62,270 nucleotides of DNA, from positions 1 to 62,270 of the forward strand of contig JAQBNL010000031.1 of NCBI GenBank assembly GCA_028288585.1, read 5' to 3'. The translations under genes and the position numbers were made by a program. Source of the stretch: Chitinophagaceae bacterium (GTDB lineage Bacteria > Bacteroidota > Bacteroidia > Chitinophagales > Chitinophagaceae). The notes beneath the pieces were generated by a model that worked only from the letters and a program-made list of their open reading frames with translations, ran no database searches and was not told the origin of the DNA. This document shows, one piece after another, positions 444 through 1,257 of the stretch (the stretch's first letter is position 1; the number at the start of each line of letters is the position of its first letter).

Positions 444-917
444 TTATTCTTTGGCCGCAATTAATACATTCCTGTTGAAACCTTCATCAAGAGAAATGAA
501 TGTCTCTGTTCTTTCTATACCTTTTATGTTTTGAAGATCATCATGCAAAACTGTACGCAGTTCATTAATGTCTTTACAAACTATTTCGATGAACATGCTG
601 TAATTTCCTGTTGTATAATTTAACCGGACTATTTGGGGAATCTTTTCAAGATCTTTTGCAACGGTATCATATAAAGAACTTTTCTCTAAATAAATGCCTA
701 CAAAAGCACTTATATCATACCCTAATTGTTTAAGATCAACGGTGATCCTTTTACCCTTTACAATACCCAATTCTTCCAGTTTCTTGATACGAACATGGAT
801 GGTTCCGCCACTAACAAATAGTTTTTTGCCTAATTCAGCGTATGGGATGTCTTCTCCATGCAACATTTCGTGAATTATCTGGAGATCTAATTTGTCAAGA
901 TTTAATTTAGCTGCCAT
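444..917 (-). CDS. Lrp/AsnC family transcriptional regulator
   Basis: A 157-residue regulator with an N-terminal winged helix-turn-helix (about residues 5-60, LDLQIIHEMLHGEDIPYAELGKKL) and a C-terminal RAM/AsnC effector domain (about 70-150). Length and layout are those of Lrp/AsnC proteins, which form octamers and usually sense amino acids. The frame stays open upstream to 1268, but that extension translates the RNA gene on the other strand and has no Lrp character, so the ATG at 917 is chosen. The gene converges tail to tail with the ABC permease (adjacent stops). Ligand and targets are unknown. Confidence 0.9.
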   Translation of the reverse strand: MAAKLNLDKLDLQIIHEMLHGEDIPYAELGKKLFVSGGTIHVRIKKLEELGIVKGKRITVDLKQLGYDISAFVGIYLEKSSLYDTVAKDLEKIPQIVRLNYTTGNYSMFIEIVCKDINELRTVLHDDLQNIKGIERTETFISLDEGFNRNVLIAAKE

Positions 918-1005: not shown

Positions 1006-1032
1006 TTGTATTTAGAACTTATTTTAGATTTG
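1006..1032 (+). promoter_or_regulatory. Possible Bacteroidota promoter for the tRNA-like RNA
   Basis: A TTG at 1006-1008 is followed after 16 nt by TAGATTTG (1025-1032), which matches the Bacteroidota -7 consensus TAnnTTTG. Spacing is slightly shorter than the usual 17-23. Transcription would start near 1039 and run into the RNA gene. It overlaps the inverted repeat at 1014-1048. Weak to moderate support. Confidence 0.35.
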
Positions 1033-1055: not shown

Positions 1056-1227
1056 TGTGGGGTGATGAAATTTTTGGCAGACATGCCCTCTTGTCTCGGG
1101 GGTGAGGATAACAGGACAAACGTAGTGTAGAGCCGGATTTATAGCAATATAGATTCGACCAGGGTCGACCACTGAACTTTGCGCTATAGCTAACTGCCTC
1201 GTGGAGGTTCGAACCCTCCCCCTACAG
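1056..1227 (+). ncRNA. tRNA-like RNA with a very long variable arm
   Basis: The ends pair as a 7-bp acceptor stem (TGTGGGG 1056-1062 with CCCTACA 1220-1226, one G-T). T8 and G9 follow, then a 3-bp D stem (1065-1067/1082-1084) with a 14-nt loop containing GG. The anticodon-like arm is CCCTC/GGGGG with loop TTGTCTC (1091-1097). The T arm is GGAGG-TTCGAAC-CCTCC (1203-1219). Between anticodon and T arms, TGAGG (1103-1107) pairs with CCTCG (1197-1201). It encloses about 89 nt with two more nested stems: TATAGC/GCTATA at 1140-1145/1183-1188 and TCGAC/GTCGA at 1155-1159/1164-1168. The 3-bp D stem and paired V arm are type II (Leu/Ser) features. The loop would read GUC at position 34-36, with an unusual U37. 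CCA is not encoded. A terminator follows directly. A tmRNA is unlikely at 172 nt. Function is unknown. Confidence 0.5.
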
Positions 1228-1228
1228 C

Positions 1229-1257
1229 AAAAACTCCCGAAATTCGGGAGTTTTTTA
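1229..1257. terminator. Bidirectional intrinsic terminator
   Basis: A hairpin ACTCCCGA/TCGGGAGT (1233-1251) has an A-run on its left and TTTTTT on its right. It can therefore end the tRNA-like RNA on the plus strand and the secreted-protein gene (1265-1834) on the minus strand. Confidence 0.85.

Follow-up and report, generated by a model that had tools for sequence, protein, structure and literature searches.

A tRNA-like RNA with aspartate identity elements and a very long variable arm beside asnC in Bacteroidota: a candidate RNA carrier for asparagine synthesis

Results

A tRNA-like RNA gene and a divergent asnC-type gene

As listed in Table 1, the window (the whole stretch of 62,270 nucleotides from a Chitinophagaceae contig analysed here) has a tRNA-like RNA gene and, divergent to it, a gene for an Lrp/AsnC-type regulator. 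A landmark check on the sequence confirmed the tRNA-like RNA noticed at 1056-1227. The 7-bp acceptor stem, T8, the 3-bp D stem, the GG of the D loop, the 5-bp anticodon-like stem with a 7-nt loop, and the TTCGAAC loop are all found where the initial annotation had placed them. The cloverleaf has a 7-bp acceptor stem, a T arm with a TTCRA loop and a D-loop GG, and the acceptor/T-stem composition is 7/5, not 8/4 or 9/3. The variable region, which had been noticed as a very long arm with nested stems, spans 1103-1202 and exceeds the ordinary type II length with its 100 nucleotide residues and nested helices. A single C follows the discriminator base, as in most of the ordinary tRNAs printed for this genome, whose tRNA-Gln has CCA. 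The strong terminator proposed previously was recovered by terminator prediction. As for the proposed promoter-like element, it is plausible in that the sequence TAGATTTG at 1025 is like the Bacteroidetes TAnnTTTG box, while a sigma-70 scan, which is not built for Bacteroidetes promoters, gave no site on the RNA strand.

Table 1. Features of the tRNA-like RNA locus in the window
Feature	Position	Strand	Basis
asnC-type Lrp/AsnC regulator gene, divergent to the RNA	444..917	-	PDB and NCBIfam matches; conserved linkage
Promoter-like TTAGATTTG, presumably of the Bacteroidetes -7 type	1024..1032	+	Sequence; same element in many same-genus loci
Whole tRNA-like RNA gene	1056..1228	+	Covariation in 29 homologues; full-length model match (L086, 1056-1227, 136.4 bits)
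Acceptor stem, 5' strand TGTGGGG	1056..1062	+	Covariation; U1-A72 and G2-C71 are GatCAB and AspRS features in the accessible text of PMC9976931
D arm, 3-bp stem (1065-1067/1082-1084), loop GGCAGA, no 20a insertion	1065..1084	+	Covariation, sequence
Anticodon-like arm CCCTC-TTGTCTC-GGGGG with G34, U35, C36, U37, C38 (loop 1091-1097)	1086..1102	+	Alignment, sequence
Variable-arm helix V1, 5' strand (partner 1197-1200)	1104..1107	+	Covariation
Variable-arm helix V2, 5' strand (partner 1194-1196)	1112..1114	+	Covariation
Internal loop GAYAAA (opposite CTAA, 1190-1193)	1115..1120	+	Largely conserved in two homologue alignments
Helix V3, 5' strand (partner 1177-1187)	1122..1132	+	Covariation, 32 long-type homologues, 92.6-95.3% of cells paired
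Variable hairpin V4	1134..1157	+	Predicted fold of the window sequence; length and sequence differ among homologues
Conserved terminal hairpin V5, GG-UNGA-CC with a bulged A (CAGGGTCGACCACTG)	1160..1174	+	Alignment and covariation, outermost pair weak
CTAA strand of the internal loop, conserved	1190..1193	+	Alignment; source of one TAAC motif of the initial annotation
T arm, TTCGAAC loop at 1208-1214	1203..1219	+	Covariation, sequence
Acceptor stem, 3' strand CCCTACA	1220..1226	+	Covariation
Discriminator G73; encoded C74	1227; 1228	+	Sequence
Intrinsic terminator of the RNA gene	1229..1255	+	Terminator prediction

ARAGORN called 0 tRNA genes and no tmRNA in the window, and the RNA locus is absent from the 33 RF00005 matches listed for the genome. 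No Rfam family, RF00005 and tmRNA included, reached its gathering score in the window; a permissive Rfam search of 900-1400 gave eight matches, all below the gathering score and to unrelated families. No tag reading frame was called in the RNA, which has an anticodon-like arm. The tmRNA model gave two matches below the cut-off in the source genome, C40:4567-4656 and C22:3711-3749, the former of which is an ordinary tRNA-Ser. Folded by itself, the window RNA does not stand out (z -1.67; equally good folds in 13 of 200 shuffles).

The cloverleaf and the variable arm covary

A trimming pattern requiring TG..CAG ends kept 56 copies. I aligned 28 of them together with a second copy in L044, leaving out L047 and the truncated L027. 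In these 29 homologues, 99.3% of the 812 pair cells (cloverleaf, V1, V2 and one pair past the internal loop) are standard pairs, compared with 90.5% in shuffles, and sliding the 3' partners as a control lowered pairing to 50-61%. The covariation that had been suggested as a check is present: compensatory cells number 85 versus 22.1 in shuffles, and pairs with double-sided changes number 14 versus a shuffle mean of 8.3. In 32 long-type homologues, the variable-arm helices are 97.7% paired with 84 compensatory cells versus 23 in shuffles; V1, V2, V3 and V5 all covary, V5 weakly at its outermost pair. A V5-hairpin sequence resembling GGGTTGACCAC is present in many viral copies, too. The tRNA-like RNA is not a chance resemblance but a structured and conserved RNA.

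Distribution in Bacteroidota and their viruses

Of 99 relatives searched by blastn, 81 had a match at E <= 1; the strong ones are mostly in the same family, and several genomes have two or more copies. With the covariance model, a strong match (E <= 1e-14) was found in 69 of 395 Bacteroidia genomes, a count that leaves out matches of about 50-61 bits and about 80-88 nt, taken as ordinary tRNA-Leu by length and bits. At some similar weak viral matches, ARAGORN calls a tRNA-Leu gene. When named genomes were scanned with a pattern, at least 119 loci were found. Most of these belong, by record title, to Chitinophagales, Cytophagales and Saprospiraceae; a few are from Flavobacteriales MAGs and one is from an Ignavibacteriales MAG. 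The same pattern found the RNA on 104 predicted viral contigs. The model search covered 100 of the 119 named-genome loci and 100 of the 104 viral loci, and all 100 viral loci matched at 83 bits or more.

The variable region is 39-131 nt long (median 86) in 143 bacterial copies and 48-102 nt (median 78) in 103 viral copies, and the forms with a 39-40-nt variable region share the same core. At L031, L036, L155 and L218, a short-arm form is followed in tandem by a long-arm form, which suggests two paralogues with a shared job. At L034 (G089:C44, locus 727-1220), two tandem copies starting like the RNA (TGTGAGGTGATGAAACAGGCAGA) but diverging past the D loop lie just before an intact copy.

In 52 of the 104 viral loci, a terminase-like family (phrog_6681 for the member tested) lies within 4 kb of the RNA. 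By ARAGORN, 21 of 36 viral loci have further tRNA or tmRNA genes (tmRNA in 7) and 15 have none; a normal tRNA-Asp(GTC) accompanies the RNA at L288 and L297. The phage contigs with tmRNA and tRNA genes beside the RNA are L277, L297, L306, L310, L311, L313 and L332, and L297 has as many as 19 tRNAs. BLAST of two viral copies against annotated phages gave no match, so no annotated phage carrier was found, and BLAST of the window RNA against plasmids also gave no match.

Aspartate and amidation elements in a body with eroded decoding features

Canonical elongator tRNAs have U33 and a purine at position 37 in the anticodon loop. In 225 distinct copies of the RNA, U37 is found in 218 and a purine at this position in 2, and U33 is kept in 190 and lost in 35. 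The initial annotation had pointed out the odd GUC/U37 loop in a type II body, and its suggestion of a non-translating tRNA gains support from these counts and from an ordinary tRNA-Asp(GTC), with G1-C72 and G73, in the source genome. G10 is a determinant in Escherichia coli tRNA-Asp, and position 10 of the RNA is mostly A.

According to the accessible text of PMC9976931, the strong determinants of aspartate identity are G73, G34, U35, C36 and C38; a U1-A72 pair makes an RNA a substrate of the tRNA-dependent amidotransferase, whereas G1-C72 and U20a block amidation. A set of 37 distinct copies was obtained without pattern selection, although with a family-trained model and so with a mild bias; in this set, U1-A72, G2-C71, G73, G34, U35, C36 and C38 are each present in 37 of 37, as is U37, and U33 is present in 32. 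The 225 distinct copies were mostly selected by a pattern that sets positions 34-36 and 38; U1-A72 is found in 223 of them and G2-C71 and G73 in all 225. Bacterial and viral copies found with this pattern are no test of the four positions that it sets. In the position tallies, 41 of 140, 0 of 38 and 4 of 129 rows were skipped, with 31, 1 and 4 duplicates merged, respectively. The D loops are of the GGCAGA type with no 20a insertion. The G1-C72 pair of bacterial tRNA-Asp is not matched, since the RNA has U1-A72, while G2-C71 is. Judging from these residues, the RNA combines the AspRS code, which would explain GUC as aspartate identity, with the GatCAB code; neither tRNA-Asp (G1-C72) nor tRNA-Asn (U36) has both.

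The RNA stands where some relatives keep an asparagine synthetase gene

AsnC is an asparagine-responsive regulator in E. coli, and in strain K-12 its gene is divergent to asnA. The neighbour of the RNA, called an Lrp/AsnC regulator in the initial annotation, proved closest to AsnC: its best PDB match is E. coli AsnC (2cg4, 111.7 bits; next 73.9), and it scores 154.3 bits with NCBIfam AsnC, below the cut-off of 227 (next 62.4). Is this linkage common? An AsnC-type gene is adjacent, upstream and divergent in 76 of the 119 bacterial loci listed. The next cluster among them has 21 members, which lie over the RNA itself on the other strand and are probably spurious, followed by one of 20. In the other 43 of the 119 listed loci, 11 of which have less than 900 nt of upstream sequence, no asnC neighbour is visible; many are Saprospiraceae and Cyclobacteriaceae by title, and no common neighbour was seen. 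At the genome level, the AsnC model (E <= 1e-25) matches 68 of 69 RNA genomes versus 61 of 326 others, and the sole miss is G458, an assembly of 1,670 contigs. In the window, trmB, encoding tRNA (guanine-46-N7)-methyltransferase, lies close downstream of the RNA at 1973-2671, and TrmB-like genes are near the RNA in 16 of the 119 listed bacterial loci.

I also analysed 20 asnC loci of genomes without the RNA. The divergent neighbour is asnB in 4 (L345, L346, L349, L352) and an AsnRS-like AsnA gene in 3 (L347, L348, L351); no asparagine synthetase was seen beside asnC in the other 13, of which L354 is partly masked. Thus, the RNA stands where some relatives keep an asparagine synthetase gene. 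At L337-L339 (family f61), a small RNA-like element (ATAATTGGTTAG or similar) is followed by a terminator-like hairpin; the genomes of these loci and of L355 have no GatB. At L343 (G224:C137), a 113-nt tRNA-like element is found on the strand divergent to asnC, about 140-255 nt upstream of that gene; its acceptor is of the TGTAGGA/TCCTACAGC type as in the RNA, and it has a T arm, a different middle and no GUC loop that could be seen. At L355 (G260:C30), a tRNA-like element divergent to asnC has a T arm and a CAT-like loop but seems to lack a D arm; its genome has AsnB and no GatB.

Asparagine synthetases and GatB in genomes with and without the RNA

I compared 39 genomes with the RNA and 28 without it, a sample of my own choosing. 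A recognised asparagine synthetase is present in 1 of 39 RNA genomes versus 17 of 28 RNA-less genomes. AsnB (NF006949, E <= 1e-100) is found in 0 of 39 versus 13 of 28, AsnRS-like AsnA (NF005054, E <= 1e-45) in 0 of 39 versus 3 of 28, and E. coli-type AsnA in 1 of 39 (G282) versus 5 of 28. GatB, by which GatCAB was scored, is present in 39 of 39 versus 14 of 28. All 39 and all 28 genomes have AsnRS, although the match is divergent in G144, G157, G164 and G193 with the RNA and in G105, G108 and G224 without it, and consists of two overlapping pieces in G154 (with the RNA). GlnRS occurs in 23 of the 39 RNA genomes and in 14 of the 28 others. A GlnRS-like match in G244 (L399, G244:C67:93500-95500) is a broken fragment that runs into a cupredoxin-like frame and was not counted; the 239-kb contig around it seems foreign to this Bacteroidia genome.

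GatCAB is not known to serve in the charging of decoding tRNAs when AsnRS and GlnRS are both present. Among the genomes having both enzymes, GatB is found in 23 of 23 with the RNA versus 1 of 14 without it (Fisher p 3.9e-9, phylogeny ignored). In RNA-less genomes without GlnRS, GatB is found in 13 of 14, as expected from the duty of GatCAB for tRNA-Gln. G392, G099 and G455, which are 99-100% complete, have the RNA, AsnRS, GlnRS and GatB, and none of the four queries, TIGR01536 included, matched an asparagine synthetase in them. TIGR01536 paralogues occur in 36 of the 39 RNA genomes. In the source genome, three such genes share a contig, and two of the three are in a polysaccharide-like cluster among glycosyltransferase-like genes.

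Family f61 includes both kinds of genomes: the members with the RNA (G176, G269, G323, G455) have GatB and no AsnB, and those without it (G137, G239, G348) have AsnB and no GatB. H at the AspRS position of E. coli L30 is a marker of the non-discriminating type. The aligned residue is L, K or F, never H, in 24 RNA genomes and L or K in 5 RNA-less genomes. One AspRS was found in 29 of the 30 genomes searched, and the search of the source genome's assembly found none. The AspRSs of G176, G323 and G455 share 69-82% identity with the AspRSs of G137, G239 and G348, which must presumably be discriminating if GatCAB is absent there.

Discussion

A possible carrier RNA for asparagine synthesis

From the structure, sequence features, asnC linkage and gene-content correlation observed above, I infer that the RNA is rather probably a dedicated, non-decoding adaptor for making asparagine. 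The AspRS of the cell would charge it with aspartate via G73, G34, U35, C36, C38 and G2-C71. GatCAB, which takes U1-A72 and refuses G1-C72, would then amidate Asp-RNA to Asn-RNA with glutamine, and hydrolysis would free asparagine, which AsnRS would load onto ordinary tRNA-Asn. The unusual anticodon loop and the oversized variable arm may bar the RNA from the ribosome or anchor it on a partner, and the conserved arm may recruit an enzyme or aid release. AsnC would control the RNA gene as it controls asparagine synthetase genes elsewhere. RNA-dependent asparagine synthesis is the simplest account of the combined AspRS and GatCAB identity, the erosion of decoding features, the position beside asnC and the gene content. 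Moreover, a carrier with an aspartate anticodon would avoid the mischarging of tRNA-Asn, so that AspRS need not be non-discriminating.

Several observations speak against the carrier. The TIGR01536 paralogues of 36 of the 39 RNA genomes might make asparagine, and G282 has both the RNA and AsnA. GatCAB is explained by tRNA-Gln in 16 of the 39 RNA genomes, which lack an intact GlnRS. The AspRSs could be non-discriminating, in which case asparagine would be made on tRNA-Asn. Charging of the RNA by AspRS could be weak because pair 1-72 is U-A instead of G1-C72 and position 10 is mostly A. No known enzyme would free the asparagine. U33 is still kept in 190 of the 225 copies, RNA-asnC adjacency is not visible in 43 of the 119 listed loci, and no asparagine synthetase is visible next to asnC in 13 of the 20 RNA-less loci, some of them having other small RNA-like elements in genomes without GatB.

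The main rival of the carrier is a regulatory RNA of asparagine/aspartate metabolism under the control of AsnC, acting by AspRS binding, its charging state or mRNA pairing, with no biosynthetic intermediate. The divergent asnC would suit such an RNA, as would the other small RNA-like elements at asnC in some RNA-less genomes, four of which (L337-L339, L355) have no GatB, and the conserved hairpin and internal loop of the variable arm could bind a partner. Nevertheless, U1-A72, the missing asparagine synthetases and the distribution of GatB (23 of 23 versus 1 of 14) are left unexplained, phage carriage is harder to account for, and I consider this reading unlikely. The sensor RNA of the initial annotation is likewise less probable than the carrier: the regulator next to it was confirmed, but the gene-content pattern fits a biosynthetic carrier better. 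It is still more doubtful that the RNA is an aspartyl- or asparaginyl-RNA donor for another non-ribosomal reaction, such as peptide, lipid or cell-wall modification. The aspartate identity with eroded decoding features would allow this, and the long arm could recruit a transferase; however, no conserved neighbouring transferase was seen, asnC being the sole dominant bacterial neighbour, and a donor does not predict the loss of asparagine synthetase.

Might the RNA still decode, inserting Asp, Asn or Ser at GAC/GAU or recoded codons? Its acceptor and T arms are sound, and 21 of the 36 viral loci scanned have other tRNA or tmRNA genes. A SerRS identity, which G73 and the long arm would also allow, was considered and set aside; the two unpaired bases before the T stem are, in my reading, Leu-like and not Ser-like. 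With U37 in 218 and U33 lost in 35 of the 225 copies, and with an ordinary tRNA-Asp(GTC) available in the source genome and in the phage loci L288 and L297, an unusual decoding tRNA seems highly improbable. Least credible of all is a tRNA gene interrupted by an insertion, which the initial annotation had suggested, or a decaying pseudogene. TAAC-like motifs do flank the arm in the window, but the strong covariation of the core and the arm contradicts this reading, and the many lineages, the tandem intact copies and the phage carriage also speak against it; the long arm is characteristic of the family and has covarying helices of its own, and the 39-40-nt forms keep the same core.

If the carrier model is true, the RNA is an undescribed family that is common in several Bacteroidota lineages and their phages. 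It would be a present-day example of an amino acid made on a non-coding RNA, which comes near to ideas on a joint origin of tRNA and metabolism, and would explain both the asparagine supply of many such bacteria that lack a recognised synthetase and the GatCAB kept beside AsnRS and GlnRS. The chances are about even that this is a widespread class of non-decoding bacterial RNA whose only job is that of a reusable RNA cofactor for a free amino acid, which replaces the protein asparagine synthetase under AsnC in much of Bacteroidota and which phages carry as a metabolic RNA gene. No earlier description was found in the literature covered, with bioRxiv preprints and most subscription papers outside its scope, which is weak evidence of novelty.

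Comparison with known systems

Like the RNA, tmRNA (RF00023) is tRNA-like, and it adjoins the RNA in 7 of the 36 phage loci scanned. Unlike tmRNA, the RNA has an anticodon-like arm, no called tag reading frame and no Rfam match. The staphylococcal tRNA-Gly for the cell wall is a non-translating amino-acid donor, in which a tRNA body has likewise been kept for metabolism with altered decoding features; the product proposed here is a free amino acid instead. The E. coli asnC-asnA pair has the same divergent layout around an AsnC-type regulator, but here an RNA gene stands in for the enzyme gene.

Allo-tRNAs and selC* tRNA-Cys, as far as the accessible text of PMC7609411 goes, are also tRNA-like with long variable arms and unexpected anticodons including GUC. 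However, theirs are of the 8/4 or 9/3 type with Ser, Ala or Cys identity, whereas the RNA is of the 7/5 type with aspartate identity elements and has a far longer arm.

In the accessible texts of PMC4206432 and PMC6523644, Deinococcus, Thermus, Staphylococcus and Bdellovibrio make asparagine on tRNA-Asn by a non-discriminating AspRS and GatCAB. The former text also lists 18 genera, including some Bacteroidetes, that have AsnRS, GlnRS and GatCAB but no asparagine synthetase, and its authors suggest tRNA-Asn as the site of synthesis. The proposed enzymes and chemistry are the same as here, with aspartate on a U1-A72 RNA amidated by GatCAB in hosts that have AsnRS but neither AsnA nor AsnB. In contrast to tRNA-Asn, the carrier proposed here would be a separate and non-decoding RNA with an aspartate anticodon, encoded beside asnC, and an RNA of this type would offer another site of asparagine synthesis in Bacteroidetes.
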